This document shows, in pieces, positions 24,851 to 30,189 of a DNA stretch of 59,811 bases (position 1 is its first letter; every line of letters starts with the position of its first letter). A model generated the notes under the pieces. It had not been told where the DNA came from. It worked only from the letters and a program-made list of their open reading frames with translations, and made no database searches. The DNA is from Deltaproteobacteria bacterium (GTDB lineage Bacteria; Myxococcota_A; JAADFL01). Position numbers and translations under genes: made by a program. The stretch lies in assembly GCA_013152945.1 (NCBI GenBank), contig JAADFL010000108.1, forward strand, positions 1-59,811, in the 5' to 3' direction.

Positions 24851-24888
24851 GAAAAACCACCCTGGGTGAAATTGCCTAGGCCCGGCCG
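24851..24888. repeat. Possible decayed family A repeat at the metF 3' end
   Basis: GAAAAACCACCCTGGGTG followed by GCCTAGGCCCGGCC resembles GAAAATCAACCTGGGTG followed by GAGGCCGAGGCC of family A. It spans the metF stop codon. On the minus strand CACC-CAG-GGTG-GTTTTT could also be a small terminator. Both readings are weak. Confidence 0.3.
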
Positions 24889-25841
24889 CTTGGCCTCGGA
24901 ACAAGGCCTGCGCCTTCCACTATTTTCGGCACTGCCTCTTCCCATTCGATAGCCATTATGTGTACCCCGCTGACTCCTGGAATCTCCATCATCTTCTGAA
25001 TCGTCTCGACGGCAATTTTAATGCCTTCTGTTTTTCTTTTTTTCTTTTCAACACCTTTGAGCCTGTCGAGCAACTCCTGCGGAACCGACATGCCCGGCAC
25101 CTTGGATGCCATGTAACGGGCCATCTTCAGGCTCTTGATTGGGGTAATCCCGGCCAGGATGAACAGTTTTTCATGGAGGCCCCTTTCCCTTACGCCCTGC
25201 ATCCATTCTTCGAACCTCGGCACGTCGAACACGCACTGGGTCTGGATAAACCTGGCACCTGCGGCAGCCTTTTTTGCCAATCTCGGCACGCGAATCCTGA
25301 AAGGATCGGCAAACGGGTTCGCCGCAGCTCCAAGGAACAGGGCCGGCCTGCCCTGAACTTCATCGCCGCCGGAAAACCTGCCTTCTGTCTGCATCCTGTC
25401 TATCATGGCCAGGAGTTGTATGGAATCTATGTCGAAAACCCCCTTAGCCATCGGGTGATCTCCGAAAGATTGGTGGTCGCCGGAAAGGCAGAGCAGGTTG
25501 TTTATTCCAAGCGAGTATGCGCCCAGGGCATCACTCTGGGCCGCGATCCGGTTTCGGTCGCGGCACACCATCTGCATGACAGGCTCGATGCCGTGGTCCA
25601 GGAGAATGGAACTTGCCGCCAGGCTGCACATCCTTACCACGCTGGTCTGGTTGTCGGTTACATTGCAGGCATCCACGAACCCCTTTAGTATGGACGCCTT
25701 GTGAGCCATGACTTCCGGTCTTGCGCCCCTTGGAGGGCCTGCCTCGGCGGTGACCGCAAACCGGCCCTGCTCCAAGATGCCTTGGAGTGCGCCCTTTTTT
25801 CTTACTTCTGTGCCTTGGTTGATCTCCATTTCAGTATCCAT
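24876..25841 (-). CDS. metF: Methylenetetrahydrofolate reductase, MetF subunit
   Basis: A 321-residue MetF-type TIM barrel that reduces 5,10-methylene-THF to 5-methyl-THF. The ATG lies one base after the metV stop, so translation is coupled. Family blocks are FAVTAEAGPPRGARP, VDACNVTDNQTSVVRMCSLA, NLLCLSGDH and, for the flavin/folate site, QTQCVFDVPRFEEWM and LAGITPIKS. It is the last gene of a five-gene minus-strand operon. MetF paired with MetV is the acetogen/Wood-Ljungdahl-type arrangement, in which MetF needs MetV and a partner electron donor instead of NADH directly. Confidence 0.93.
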   Translation of the reverse strand: MDTEMEINQGTEVRKKGALQGILEQGRFAVTAEAGPPRGARPEVMAHKASILKGFVDACNVTDNQTSVVRMCSLAASSILLDHGIEPVMQMVCRDRNRIAAQSDALGAYSLGINNLLCLSGDHQSFGDHPMAKGVFDIDSIQLLAMIDRMQTEGRFSGGDEVQGRPALFLGAAANPFADPFRIRVPRLAKKAAAGARFIQTQCVFDVPRFEEWMQGVRERGLHEKLFILAGITPIKSLKMARYMASKVPGMSVPQELLDRLKGVEKKKRKTEGIKIAVETIQKMMEIPGVSGVHIMAIEWEEAVPKIVEGAGLVPRPSGRA

Positions 25842-25842
25842 G

Positions 25843-26502
25843 TCACTTGATATCCCCGCGATCCATACTGGACGGTTTGCCGTATTCGGACCAGTCCGCA
25901 GGCATGATGATTTCTTCGTAACGGTCGAGCATGCCGAGCCTTTCAAGGCGGTCCACGATGAGCTGCCATGCACATGGTATGGATGGATCGACTTCGCATG
26001 CGCCGTTTGACGAGCCGCCGCAAGGTCCGTTCAGCAATCCCTTGGAACACCTGGTCACAGGACAGATTCCGGCGGTCAGGTGAAGCTTGCAATCCCCGCA
26101 AGCCTTGCATCGCTCGACCCACGTGCCCTTTCCCTCGGACACGCCTATGAAAGTGGTGTCAAGCGCAGGGAGCACGATTGCGTCTTGCAGCCTTTCGGCC
26201 ACGAGTTGAACCCCAGCACCACAAGCCATGGACAACACGGCGTCATGGTCATCTCGCGAATACGGCAGTTCGTCCACGAACTCGGGCTCACACTGCCTCT
26301 CTACGACAGCCGTATCAACCCGGATTGGCCGGCCCTGTTCATTTCTTGCAGACTTGAGTAACGATGCAAGGACGCGAACCTCTTTTTCACCACCTGCACC
26401 GCAGACGGTTACACATCCCCTGCAACCGGCCAGCAATACACTGTCTGCGCCTTGAAGGGTCGCCAGGATAGCCTGTATGGGTTTTTGTTCGGCAACGATC
26501 AT
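25843..26502 (-). CDS. metV: MetV-type Zn/Fe-S partner of methylenetetrahydrofolate reductase
   Basis: A 219-residue protein of the methylene-THF reductase C-terminal (MTHFR_C) family. N-terminal cysteines C27, C30 and C34 (AGCRGCVTVCGAGG) and the C-terminal block RCKACGDCKLHLTAGICPVT then RCSKGLLNGPCGG are diagnostic. In acetogens MetV binds zinc and Fe-S and links MetF to its electron supply (RnfC2, or HdrABC-MvhD). The start has GGAG at good spacing, inside a 13-bp tandem duplication that also covers the larA stop codon. It sits 12 bp after larA and 1 bp before metF. Confidence 0.92.
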   Translation of the reverse strand: MIVAEQKPIQAILATLQGADSVLLAGCRGCVTVCGAGGEKEVRVLASLLKSARNEQGRPIRVDTAVVERQCEPEFVDELPYSRDDHDAVLSMACGAGVQLVAERLQDAIVLPALDTTFIGVSEGKGTWVERCKACGDCKLHLTAGICPVTRCSKGLLNGPCGGSSNGACEVDPSIPCAWQLIVDRLERLGMLDRYEEIIMPADWSEYGKPSSMDRGDIK

Positions 26503-26504
26503 TG

Positions 26505-26530
26505 TATTTCTCCGCTATATTTCTCCGCTA
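26505..26530 (-). repeat. 13-bp tandem duplication over larA stop and metV ribosome site
   Basis: The minus-strand unit TAGCGGAGAAATA occurs twice end to end. One copy encodes the last LarA residues (SGEI), the next supplies the TAG stop and the GGAG ribosome site of metV. Because 13 is not a multiple of three, the duplication itself created this stop. Confidence 0.8.
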
Positions 26531-27786
26531 CGTTTCTCCAAAACAGGCACGGTCAATCCGCCGTCCATCAGGACGAGCAACTTTGCATCCCTGCCTTTTT
26601 TTTCAATAGCCGCGCCGATTGCCTGCTCGAGGGAATCAAAAGGCCTTATGTAGATTTGTTCCAGGCTTTCAGGCGCTATATCCGTAACAGCCCATATTTC
26701 AGCCCAGAGGCATATCTCGGCCAACTTGGCCGCCTTATGGTACCCGAGTTTGTATTCTTTCTCTATTTCTTCGAGCGCTCTTGCAGGCGAACCGGCGCTC
26801 GAAAGCAAGCGGGCAAAGGCCTTTTCACCAATGCCGTCCCTGCACTGGGACACCAGGATTATTATTCCGCCTTGCTTTAAAGCATGTTTTGCATTATCGA
26901 TTCCCTTTTGTGACTGGTACAGGTCAATATCTCCGGGGAACTTTACGACCGATATGACGATATCCGCCTTTTCATGGATCTGTACTGCGAATATTTCGTT
27001 CGCCTTCTTTGCAGCCGCATTAAGGGAAGCATGTATTTCTCCCGAGCAGGTCGCGAATATCCTGTGGTCCTTATCAAGGACCGTATTTATTGCAAAGGCC
27101 CGGCTCTTGACATGGGCCAGGGCGTCCACCATGTCTTCGTGAACCGGATTGCCTTTGAGCGCAAGCGTCCTTGCTTCGGGCTTCAGGGCCAGCTTGTGGT
27201 TTTGCTCGATCGTGTCGTACGCGGCTATGCCGGGCAGGAAGGATTTCCTGCCCCCGGTGTAACCCGCAAAGTAATGAGGCTCGACAGAGCTTATCACGAG
27301 TATGCTGTCGGCCCGGGCCCCCAGTTTATTGACACTCATGGGCGTACCGTTCGTGGATTTTCCCAAGTACACCATGTTGTCCCTGTCACGGGCATCATGG
27401 CTGAAGATATGGCTCTTGAACCTGGCATAGTTGCTCTTTCCGAAGATTTGAATGTACTCTTCCTCGGTGGGATGCCTGTGTATTCCGGTAGCCACCAGGA
27501 AATCGGGTTCCTTTGGTGCTATTTCGTCTGCAATAAGGCTAAGGACCCTTGCAGTAGGGGTAGGCCTGGTCGCATCGTTGACCAGTACGAGCAAGCGGTC
27601 GGCATCTTTCAGGAATTCATGCAGTGAAAGCCCGCCTATGGGCCCGGACATGGATTTTTCCAGTATCCGGTCGGGATCCGAATTCTCCGGGTTTACATGG
27701 TTGGGCTCGAGCACGGCCAAAAGGTTACGATCCGGAAGATCAATGTCGAGCTTGCCTTCCCGGCCGTAAGGAATCCAAAGGTTCAT
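26515..27786 (-). CDS. larA: LarA-type nickel-pincer lactate racemase homologue
   Basis: A 423-residue protein of the LarA family, which racemises or epimerises 2-hydroxy acids with the nickel-pincer nucleotide cofactor. All catalytic positions known for Lactobacillus LarA can be matched: D71 and R74 (VNDATRP), H103 (GIHRHP), H171 (EPHYFAGY), pincer-linked K181 (GGRKSFLPG), and Q291 and K294 (YQSQKGID). An active enzyme is thus likely. The cofactor genes larB, larC and larE are not in this window. The ATG overlaps the stop of the Fe-S/MvhD gene and has AGGAG upstream. Lactate is the simplest substrate given the GlcD-like oxidase in the same operon, but malate or other hydroxy acids are possible. 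Confidence 0.88.
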   Translation of the reverse strand: MNLWIPYGREGKLDIDLPDRNLLAVLEPNHVNPENSDPDRILEKSMSGPIGGLSLHEFLKDADRLLVLVNDATRPTPTARVLSLIADEIAPKEPDFLVATGIHRHPTEEEYIQIFGKSNYARFKSHIFSHDARDRDNMVYLGKSTNGTPMSVNKLGARADSILVISSVEPHYFAGYTGGRKSFLPGIAAYDTIEQNHKLALKPEARTLALKGNPVHEDMVDALAHVKSRAFAINTVLDKDHRIFATCSGEIHASLNAAAKKANEIFAVQIHEKADIVISVVKFPGDIDLYQSQKGIDNAKHALKQGGIIILVSQCRDGIGEKAFARLLSSAGSPARALEEIEKEYKLGYHKAAKLAEICLWAEIWAVTDIAPESLEQIYIRPFDSLEQAIGAAIEKKGRDAKLLVLMDGGLTVPVLEKRSGEI

Positions 27787-28751
27787 ACCGAATCTCCTGT
27801 TGCAGCCTTTTTACCAGGGCTGCCAAGGTACCTCAAAAAATCGCTGACAGCGGATGAAAAGGCTTTTGTGTCAAGCCTTGGCGCCTCCGCGGTCCTTACC
27901 CTTTCAGGGTCCATTCCAGCCTGGGACAGGAAATTCCTCAACCTTGTAATTCGTGCCTTTGCCCTGTCGGCGCCTTCATGGTCGCATTGATCCGATGGAC
28001 AATGCACGACCAGAACTCCGTGGGCACCGAGTTCCAGCGCCTTTAGCGGCAATTCCATGGGCAACCTGCCTGCACAGGCCGTAACGAACAACTTGTAAGG
28101 CTCTCTTTCTTTTTCGGCGTTTTCTTGTGCTGAAAAACGTGCATGTTGCAACCCGGGGTACGTGGACCAGTTGCAACTGAACACGACGAGTTTCTTATCA
28201 TTTTTGTGATTTTCAACAAACTCACGAATCTGATCTTCTATCAAGCCCCTGTCTGCCGCCAAGGCTGTTTCGAATTTTATTGCTCCTGCCGAGCAGGTAT
28301 CCACGCAGGAACCGCAACCTCTGCATTTCACGGGATCGGTGAGAACAATGCCGTCTTGGAAATACCTTGCTTCATGGGGACACACGCGGAGGCAATTGAG
28401 GCATGCAACACATTTTTGCGGATCGGTTTCGGCAAGGGTCCCTTTAACCTCGATTCCGGTATCCATGATATCGGCCCTTGCGTCCTGGAATATATCGAGC
28501 AAGGGCACGCCGGAAGAGCATGCCTTTTCGCACTGGCCGCAGCCCAGGCACTGGAAGACCTTTGAACCGGTATCGGTTGTAAGCCCGATCCGCCGGTGAA
28601 GCAGGCCGTGCAGTATTATCAGCTTACCCCTCGGAGCATCGGACTCCCACCCGGTCGCCCTGTATATGGGGCAATGTTCGTAACAGTAACCGCATCTTAT
28701 ACAACTGTTGAGTGCGATTTCCCAAGCCTTCAGTCTCTTGAACTCAAGCAT
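27783..28751 (-). CDS. Fe-S protein with four [4Fe-4S] motifs and C-terminal MvhD domain
   Basis: A 322-residue electron carrier. The ATG overlaps the glcD-like stop and follows AAGGGAAAG. Four CxxCxxCxxxC motifs are at 17-27, 68-78, 114-124 and 143-153: the first pair resembles GlcF/HdrC-type ferredoxin domains, the second a 2x[4Fe-4S] ferredoxin. Residues about 188-285 match the MvhD/FlpD family (VVFSCNWSTYPG...VTACAGRLP...HCPSDQCDHEG); cysteines 193, 226, 251 and 256 could hold its [2Fe-2S] centre, although the usual CNWC reads CNWS. MvhD passes electrons between hydrogenase or other dehydrogenases and heterodisulfide reductase. No CCG domain of GlcF/HdrD is present. The protein probably wires the flavin oxidase to MetV-MetF. 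Confidence 0.85.
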   Translation of the reverse strand: MLEFKRLKAWEIALNSCIRCGYCYEHCPIYRATGWESDAPRGKLIILHGLLHRRIGLTTDTGSKVFQCLGCGQCEKACSSGVPLLDIFQDARADIMDTGIEVKGTLAETDPQKCVACLNCLRVCPHEARYFQDGIVLTDPVKCRGCGSCVDTCSAGAIKFETALAADRGLIEDQIREFVENHKNDKKLVVFSCNWSTYPGLQHARFSAQENAEKEREPYKLFVTACAGRLPMELPLKALELGAHGVLVVHCPSDQCDHEGADRAKARITRLRNFLSQAGMDPERVRTAEAPRLDTKAFSSAVSDFLRYLGSPGKKAATGDSV

Positions 28752-30189
28752 CTTTCCCTTCCTGCGTAACATAACGCAACCGGGCCGCAGACATCCAGTC
28801 GTCCGGTGCGTCCATAAGCTTTCCGGGGTTGAGTATCCCCTTGGGGTCAAAAGCCTTCTTTACCGATCTCATAAGGTCCAGCAGGTCGTGTTTCTCCTGC
28901 TTGAAGGCAGGGGCCTTGGACATGCCGATTCCGTGTTCCGCCGACGTCGTGCCGTCCACGGATCTGACGTGCTCGTAGATTTCCGCTATTGCCTCCCGGG
29001 CCGCCTCCCATTGCGCTCCCTTGGTGGTATCCATGAGGATCTTGGTGTGCATGCAACCTGCGCCGCAATGACCGTATGCAGTCATGATGATACCGTGCTT
29101 GTCGGCTGTTTCGTGTATTTTGCGCGCAGTGTCCGCCATCCTTGAGAACGGAACGGCCATGTCGTCGGCAAGTGAAGTGGATGCCAGGTATTCCCTGTAC
29201 CGGGACAGGGCAGGGAAGAGCTTTTTCCTGCCCGCAAAGATTCGTTCCCTTTCTTTCGCGTCATAGCTGACCTCGATTCCGGAGCCCTGGTGAGCGGCAC
29301 AAATTTCCCTGGCCTTTTCTATCTCGAAATCAACCGCTTCCATGACCATGCCGTCTGCCTCGAATAGCAGTATTGCCTCCACGTCGGGCAGCCCGAGGTT
29401 CATGGATTGGTTGACGGCCGTTATAGCAACCTTGTCGATCAATTCCAACATGGAGGGACTACACCCGGATGCAATAATCTCGGATATCGCATCCCCGGCC
29501 TGTTCCAGCTTGTTGAAGTTTGCAATGCCCATGCACCTGAACTTGGGCAGGGGAACGAACTTCAAGGTGGCCTCGACTATCACGGCCAGGGTGCCCTCGG
29601 AACCGATCATCAGCCTTTCCAATGGATAACCCGAAGAAGCGACCCTTGTCCTTGAGCCCAGGTTCACACAGTCGCCGTTTGCCAGGACCACCTTCATGCC
29701 CAGAACCGAGTCCCGGGCCGCGCCGTACTTTACGGAACGGGTGCCGCTTGCATTGTTGCCGATTTCTCCGCCGATCGTGGCTATCCGGCTGGAAGCCGGG
29801 GTAGGCGGGTAGAAGAAGCCGTGAGGACTCAAGGCCCGGTTAAGGTCGTCGTCGACCACGCCCGGCTCGACCCGGCAGTACGCATCGTTTACGTTTACCT
29901 CCAGGATTCGGTTCAGCCCCTTCATGTCCAGAACAATGCCGCCCTTGACAGGAACCGTCTGCCCGCACATTCCCGAGCCGGAACCTCTCGGAATCACGGG
30001 TATCGAGTTCTTGTCCGCATATGCCATCAACTCCTGTACGGCCGGGATCGTGCGTGGTTTGACCACGACAAAGGCCTTGCCCTCGTAAACCGATGCATCC
30101 GCGCCGTACACGTACAGGTCCGCCTTCGAATCCCTTAGGTTTTCTTCTCCGACTATCTTTTTCAATTCGAGTATATCCGGCGGGTTCAT
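28744..30189 (-). CDS. FAD-linked 2-hydroxyacid oxidase (GlcD/D-lactate dehydrogenase type)
   Basis: A 481-residue flavoprotein with an N-terminal FAD_binding_4 domain (VIPRGSGSGMCGQTVPVKGG, then PPTPASSRIATIGGEIGNNA followed by SGTRSVKYG) and a C-terminal FAD-oxidase domain ending TSAEHGIGMSKAPAFKQEK then FDPKGILNPGKL. Such enzymes oxidise D-lactate, glycolate or similar acids. GGAGGTG seven bases before the ATG defines the start. It opens the five-gene operon with the Fe-S/MvhD protein, LarA, MetV and MetF. The LarA homologue suggests that both lactate enantiomers can be used. No EtfAB, permease or lactate regulator is adjacent. Confidence 0.9.
   Translation of the reverse strand: MNPPDILELKKIVGEENLRDSKADLYVYGADASVYEGKAFVVVKPRTIPAVQELMAYADKNSIPVIPRGSGSGMCGQTVPVKGGIVLDMKGLNRILEVNVNDAYCRVEPGVVDDDLNRALSPHGFFYPPTPASSRIATIGGEIGNNASGTRSVKYGAARDSVLGMKVVLANGDCVNLGSRTRVASSGYPLERLMIGSEGTLAVIVEATLKFVPLPKFRCMGIANFNKLEQAGDAISEIIASGCSPSMLELIDKVAITAVNQSMNLGLPDVEAILLFEADGMVMEAVDFEIEKAREICAAHQGSGIEVSYDAKERERIFAGRKKLFPALSRYREYLASTSLADDMAVPFSRMADTARKIHETADKHGIIMTAYGHCGAGCMHTKILMDTTKGAQWEAAREAIAEIYEHVRSVDGTTSAEHGIGMSKAPAFKQEKHDLLDLMRSVKKAFDPKGILNPGKLMDAPDDWMSAARLRYVTQEGKDA

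Follow-up and report, generated by a model that had tools for sequence, protein, structure and literature searches.

The stretch of DNA analysed here (the window) comprises 59,811 nucleotides, positions 1 to 59,811 of the forward strand of contig JAADFL010000108.1 from a Deltaproteobacteria bacterium (GenBank assembly GCA_013152945.1), and carries a five-gene operon, glcD-FeSD-larA-metV-metF. The operon encodes a GlcD-type flavin oxidoreductase, a composite iron–sulfur and MvhD/FlpD protein that we call FeSD, a LarA homologue and the two subunits of MetVF, a methylene-tetrahydrofolate (methylene-THF) reductase. We put at slightly better than even the chance that it is a malate-linked methylene-THF reductase, in which a D-malate/oxaloacetate oxidoreductase is wired via MvhD to MetVF. 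The genes present, their conservation, the separate MetV clade, the signature residues and the switching of partners are observed, whereas the acid used, physical contact with MetVF and the direction of electron flow are what we infer. Direct, NAD-free wiring of GlcD-FeSD to MetVF is plausible on comparative grounds and by analogy, because the gene order is conserved, the MetV clade is dedicated, a second association is independent of the first and the pairing of MvhD with MetVF is known. A first-pass annotation of the window had proposed such a coupling with lactate as the acid; the coupling has gained comparative support, whereas lactate has not, and MetVF appears to be one of several partners.

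In the favoured scheme, LarA would interconvert L- and D-malate by means of a nickel-pincer cofactor, and GlcD, with FAD, would oxidise D-malate to oxaloacetate or reduce oxaloacetate. Electrons would pass via the four [4Fe-4S] clusters of FeSD to its MvhD domain, which would exchange them with MetVF in the role that MvhD has in HdrA-MvhD-MetVF. This would couple the oxidation of malate to the reduction of methylene-THF, or the opposite pair of reactions, with no need for NAD, ferredoxin or quinone, and elsewhere the GlcD-FeSD module would partner an Mvh-type hydrogenase, and probably HdrA.

Operon layout and the composite FeSD protein

An open reading frame (ORF) check found all five minus-strand genes between 24876 and 30189, almost without gaps (Table 1), and both coordinates and Pfam agree with the single operon with overlaps or gaps of 1-12 bp described in the first-pass annotation. 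The adjacency of metV (PF12225) and metF (PF02219) identifies a MetVF-type methylene-THF reductase, and the MetF is not of the NAD(P)H-type equivalog (TIGR00676, 77 bits against a cut-off of 293.7). The window MetV has no real homologue among solved structures. No hdrA, hdrB or hdrC was found between 24876 and 30189 by ORF and Pfam reading of the operon.

Table 1. Features of the operon and its products, in window coordinates
Feature	Position	Strand	Details
glcD	28744-30189	-	481 aa; Pfam FAD_binding_4 + FAD-oxidase_C; predicted D-malate:acceptor oxidoreductase
GlcD Lys383 codon	29041-29043	-	aligned to distal-carboxylate residue Asn443 of human D-2-hydroxyglutarate dehydrogenase (D-2-HGDH)
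FeSD	27783-28751	-	322 aa; ATG at 28751, end 27783; 8-bp overlap with glcD
FeSD aa 14-82, GlcF/GlpC-type two-cluster ferredoxin segment	28506-28712	-	Pfam Fer4_8; GlcF and GlpC matches
FeSD aa 109-157, HdrA-type two-cluster ferredoxin segment	28281-28427	-	HdrA2 C-terminal match, aa 96-309
FeSD aa 189-308, MvhD/FlpD domain	27828-28187	-	FlpD E 7e-22; Foldseek 5odc_D E 2.9e-6, TMt 0.73
larA homologue	26515-27786	-	4-bp overlap with FeSD; Pfam Lar_N + LarA_C; predicted nickel-pincer malate racemase
metV	25843-26502	-	12-bp gap after larA; PF12225 E 4e-37; Fe-S/Zn subunit of MetVF
metF	24876-25841	-	ATG at 25841, end 24876; 1-bp gap after metV; PF02219 (methylene-THF reductase) E 7.5e-43; flavin subunit

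FeSD, the proposed electron wire, has a mixed make-up: up to residue ~95 it resembles GlcF/GlpC ferredoxin domains, and residues ~96-309 resemble the C-terminal ferredoxin and MvhD part of HdrA2. It contains exactly four C-x2-C-x2-C-x3-C motifs, and all 16 cysteines are invariant in a 27-row alignment. Pfam and Foldseek both assign the FlpD fold, and the AlphaFold2 model (mean predicted local distance difference test score 83.3) matches the solved MvhD chains 5odc_D, 8rvu_F and 7bkb_F. The four [4Fe-4S] motifs plus an MvhD domain noticed at first reading are thus borne out, with one qualification: C193, C226, C251 and C256 are conserved, and the second cysteine of the canonical CNWC is serine in the window. 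Every intact family member has CxW[S/A/G/E] in place of CNWC and lacks the full canonical MvhD cysteine set.

FeSD is split in L069 (7476-8434) and L070 (5373-6331) into a four-cluster ferredoxin of 183 aa and a free MvhD of 134 aa, 2 bp apart, which reads as a natural fission at the domain boundary. Selenocysteine, raised by in-frame TGA flags in three genomes (G192, G200, G208), was rejected as the TGA is an ordinary C-terminal stop; the interruption in the FeSD of G174/L071 is a frameshift.

Conservation, MetV lineage and electron partners

The scan for FeSD covered one genome per species (L numbers denote loci and G numbers genomes, G000 being the window genome) and gave about 40 homologues. 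The full five-gene order is also found in L034 (a metagenome-assembled genome, MAG, labelled Deltaproteobacteria), L037, L040 and L042 (Acidobacteriota); the operon order recurs without metF at the locus in L035 (Syntrophorhabdaceae) and without larA in L038 and L039 (Pseudomonadota). Besides the window, seven MAGs from several phyla therefore have the whole set or lack just larA or metF. Uniqueness of the order to this genome, which the first-pass annotation had named as fatal to its reading, is rejected, since the order is conserved across phyla. Most of the remaining loci are glcD-FeSD-larA trios, chiefly in Desulfobacterales and Dehalococcoidia, and FeSD occurs in 52 of 59 sampled Desulfobacteraceae; no full-length FeSD was found among 139 same-phylum relatives of the window genome. 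No description of this operon was found in a literature search, subscription papers being outside it.

By its phylogeny, the MetV of the operon belongs to a dedicated lineage. In a tree of 87 distinct MetVs from 34 carrier genomes, labelled by gene context, most MetVs adjoin HdrA/MvhD. A single clade (100/100) unites the window's MetV with the other seven from glcD-FeSD operons; it is found only beside glcD-FeSD, and its sister is an Hdr-linked MetV (87/90). Three more MetVs, from Desulfobacterium/Desulfocicer, are linked independently to glcD-FeSD-larA and fall inside a clade with the usual order MetV-MetF-HdrA'-HdrA''MvhD, which their own order, MetV-MetF-GlcD-FeSD-LarA, parallels. The GlcD tree agrees, keeping the window-type and Desulfobacterium/Desulfocicer groups apart. 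The simplest reading of these trees would be that GlcD-FeSD has replaced HdrA-MvhD beside MetVF on two occasions as its partner. Chance adjacency of MetVF and the trio is rejected by the fully supported clade and the second, independent linkage. A housekeeping role of MetVF in the Pseudomonadota operons is disfavoured, as G144 and G145 also have a canonical MetF.

The contact itself has a precedent, as MvhD pulled down HdrA, HdrB and MetF in Sporomusa ovata (PMC9430772). An MvhD-to-MetVF contact is therefore known in principle, and position and homology suggest that in this operon FeSD would provide it.

The MvhD domain resembles a socket that accepts interchangeable partners, MetVF being one of them, because FeSD elsewhere adjoins Mvh-type [NiFe] hydrogenase genes or sits inside a C4-dicarboxylate cluster. 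Such neighbours are seen in lineages without MetV. In an Armatimonadetes MAG (L070), genes for SdhB-like and FrdA-like proteins, GlcD and the ferredoxin and MvhD halves of FeSD are followed by those for the small and large subunits of a NiFe hydrogenase, a maturation protease, succinyl-CoA synthetase, fumarase and malate dehydrogenase. A Cloacimonadota MAG (L069) follows the beginning of this order until its contig ends, with the first hydrogenase gene visible after FeSD, and L067 reads HdrA, MvhD, hydrogenase small subunit, FeSD, hydrogenase large subunit. FeSD thus stands beside Mvh-type hydrogenase genes at L070 3913-8829 (as two halves) and at L067 2575-6402 (between the subunit genes), and the arrangement suggests a putative H2:oxaloacetate/malate oxidoreductase in the Armatimonadetes/Cloacimonadota MAGs.

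In the strongest competing account, which we regard as unlikely but the least so of the alternatives, GlcD-FeSD and MetVF would each feed an HdrA-type or membrane acceptor encoded elsewhere, by way of MvhD-type contacts and at similar potential, with no transfer between them and the operon serving only their co-expression. Docking to HdrA is the classical role of MvhD, HdrA-like and HdrA_MvhD genes stand beside another MetVF in the window genome (C186), and an HdrA'-HdrA''MvhD-MetVF cluster adjoins the trio in L048 and L056. Moreover, GlcD-FeSD exists in genomes without MetV, where it must use other partners, the MetVF link being one option of a modular system. However, the operon has no hdrA, its MetV clade is separate from the Hdr-linked MetVs of the same genomes, FeSD has an MvhD domain of its own, and MetVF is placed beside it as beside MvhD in Hdr operons.

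Several further contexts were seen. One or two genes of the RACo type (reductive activator of corrinoid protein) lie divergent to the trio at nine Desulfobacterales loci (L048, L050, L051, L052, L055-L058, L063), a putative further one-carbon link of the trio. Desulfocicer vacuolatum has two trio copies (L046, L048), one with upstream metVF and the other with convergent metVF-HdrA'-HdrA''MvhD. In a third MetVF context, ten MetVs stand beside an HdrC-like protein (L136 at G000:C167, L190, L191, L158, L176, L178, L181, L185, L188, L133) and form a membrane-type clade (100/97), the neighbours at L191 also including MetF and a membrane protein that is NarI-like; these could possibly be quinone-linked methylene-THF reductases.

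Malate or lactate as substrate

The first-pass annotation had read the oxidase as lactate-type, which the active sites do not support; sequence features of both enzymes and of their neighbourhoods indicate that lactate is probably wrong and that the substrate is probably malate. The annotation was right that LarA has all its catalytic residues: the equivalents of R75, H108, H174, K184, H200, Q295 and K298 are kept, as expected of the LarA superfamily of nickel-pincer nucleotide enzymes, and LarC is encoded in the window genome (G000:C209). G144 and G145, in whose operons larA is missing, have no LarC.

Against the lactate-racemase equivalog NF033504 the window LarA scores 311.8 bits, below the cut-off of 460, and its best solved match is the malate racemase Mar2 (6d6z, E 2.9e-67). 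At LarA1 positions 175, 176, 358 and 359, lactate-type enzymes have F, F, W and E/Q, and malate-type enzymes have H/Q and K at the last two (PMC11770544; malate-racemase signature residues also from PMC7583248). The window has Y, F, H and K, which lacks the lactate signature and carries the malate residues at 358/359, and H and K recur there, with Gln before the catalytic Lys, in all 34 aligned LarAs (the window and 33 relatives). Two further LarA homologues of the window genome (G000:C87, G000:C20; L138, L139) have I,K,H,R and Q,N,W,K as active-site residues, differences that suggest other hydroxyacid substrates.

The GlcD protein also has an extra cationic residue at the distal-carboxylate site. 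Its closest solved chain is 7qh2_C (LctD), followed by glycolate oxidase and D-lactate dehydrogenase (D-LDH), and it falls short of the glycolate oxidase equivalog (TIGR00387, 385.8 bits, cut-off 567.9). The equivalents of D-2-HGDH R386, H434, H441, E475 and H476 are kept as R321, H374, H381, E418 and H419. Of the residues that bind the distal carboxylate in that enzyme, Tyr432 is kept (Y372), Asn443 is replaced by Lys383, and Thr390 and Lys401 are lost; the role of Asn443 and those of the catalytic residues are known from the human enzyme (PMC7801405). Lys383 is invariant in 39 of 40 rows, the 40th being unreadable. In the whole family to which the window GlcD belongs, the GDGN that is near-universal in GlcD/D-LDH enzymes has become G[A/S/I]G[C/L], followed by HTK (window residues 374-384), apparently a family-specific active-site motif.

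Gene neighbourhoods point the same way. The trio lies between oxaloacetate/pyruvate carboxylase and a fumarase and FrdA-like cluster in L061 and L065, and malic enzyme and PYC_OADA adjoin the operon genes in L035. Furthermore, the three known malate dehydrogenase families Ldh_1, Mqo and Ldh_2 are all without a match over the cut-off in 20 of the 38 carrier genomes, including the isolates Desulfobacter latus, Desulfocicer vacuolatum and Desulfamplus, though this is only suggestive of a malate role.

It is accordingly improbable that LarA racemises lactate and GlcD is a D-lactate oxidase feeding MetVF. The lactate dehydrogenase LctD of Acetobacterium woodii is the closest solved relative of GlcD, D-lactate is commonly used by this flavoprotein family, and the lactate/pyruvate potential almost equals that of methylene-/methyl-THF. 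However, position 358/359 of LarA is uniformly of the malate type, in place of the Lys of GlcD, LctD and D-LDH carry Tyr and Ile, and C4-dicarboxylate genes are neighbours in four loci (L035, L061, L065 and L070). Less probable again is co-regulation only, in which MetVF would use reduced ferredoxin as in Clostridium ljungdahlii and GlcD-FeSD an unrelated acceptor, for although purified MetVF accepts ferredoxin electrons in vitro (PMC8515935; S. ovata MetVF, PMC9430772) and is not adjacent in most trio loci, the two independent associations with the GlcD-FeSD module, the dedicated MetV clade and the general MvhD-MetVF pairing argue against it.

Known systems, energetics and significance

The operon resembles the Hdr-type HdrCBA-MvhD-MetVF of Moorella thermoacetica and Sporomusa ovata in combining, within one operon, a MetVF core, an MvhD unit and an iron–sulfur/flavin module. 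It differs in having no HdrA, HdrB or HdrC, in its flavin module, a GlcD-type 2-hydroxyacid oxidoreductase to which four [4Fe-4S] motifs join MvhD, and in its additional LarA racemase. RnfC2-MetVF (A. woodii type) likewise gives MetVF a dedicated electron-input subunit, which in the window is a hydroxyacid oxidoreductase instead of an RnfC-like NADH-oxidising subunit. LctBCD (a lactate dehydrogenase with electron-transferring flavoprotein, Etf; 7qh2) and GlcDEF/GlcDF similarly pair a GlcD-type flavoprotein with an Fe-S or flavin carrier; unlike them, the window lacks Etf, GlcE and the GlcF CCG domains, and has an MvhD output and the extra active-site Lys383. With Mar2 (LarAH6), LarA shares catalytic and cofactor residues, the Gln before the catalytic Lys and the GxHK motif, at about 35% identity. 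MvhAGD/HdrABC shares the MvhD domain, and FeSD in L070 and L067 stands beside Mvh-type hydrogenase genes, whereas the window has no hydrogenase and its MvhD would be a domain of a malate-oxidoreductase wire.

The oxaloacetate/malate couple lies at about -172 mV, and the argument from near-equal potentials made in the first-pass annotation survives with this couple. The methylene-/methyl-THF couple lies at -200 mV (PMC9430772). Because the couples are close in standard potential, metabolite ratios would set the direction. The window genome has a carbon monoxide dehydrogenase/acetyl-CoA synthase cluster that includes a methyltransferase-like gene; in that genome methyl-THF can thus pass into or out of the Wood-Ljungdahl pathway.

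Several observations weigh against the malate-linked reading. The loss of one canonical cysteine from the MvhD domain makes its cluster uncertain. MetVF is adjacent in no more than roughly a quarter of the trio loci, and MetV is missing from four of the 38 carrier genomes, where GlcD-FeSD clearly manages without it. The window LarA scores 381.4 bits against the malate-racemase model NF052593 (LarAH6), still its best LarA model but under the cut-off of 500, and its loop after the catalytic His has Y,F where Mar2 has Y,K (Phe for Lys). The key Lys401 of D-2-HGDH is Ala in the window GlcD. The 59 Desulfobacteraceae divide into 34 with FeSD only, 18 with both FeSD and malate dehydrogenase (Ldh_1), 3 with Ldh_1 only and 4 with neither, and with co-occurrence in 18, strict replacement of malate dehydrogenase by the trio is not shown. 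An ordinary NAD-malate dehydrogenase (C69) is encoded in the window genome, which therefore does not depend on the operon as its sole malate enzyme. Acetyl-CoA synthase is missing from five genomes of the glcD-linked clade, and the module is accordingly not bound to acetogenesis.

A broader proposal falls a little short of an even chance: GlcD-FeSD-LarA would be an unrecognised kind of malate dehydrogenase, soluble, NAD-independent and nickel-dependent, working via D-malate and serving the malate/oxaloacetate step of central metabolism across much of the Desulfobacteraceae and in a number of candidate phyla, with an MvhD that plugs into MetVF (as a fifth type of methylene-THF reductase), an Mvh-type [NiFe] hydrogenase or HdrA.

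Which electron partner MetVF uses physiologically is a long-standing question for acetogens and Wood-Ljungdahl sulfate reducers. If the malate-linked reading is true, its dedicated hydroxyacid-oxidising partner would make this MetVF a clear case, one whose donor is defined and can be assayed, and anaerobes could exchange electrons between central carbon and one-carbon metabolism independently of NAD. Desulfocicer vacuolatum, which is cultured and carries metV-metF-glcD-FeSD-larA, makes the idea open to direct test. The module may also supply the malate-to-oxaloacetate step where no standard malate dehydrogenase is found, for example in Desulfobacter latus and D. vacuolatum, and this role would explain a malate racemase gene in such anaerobes.

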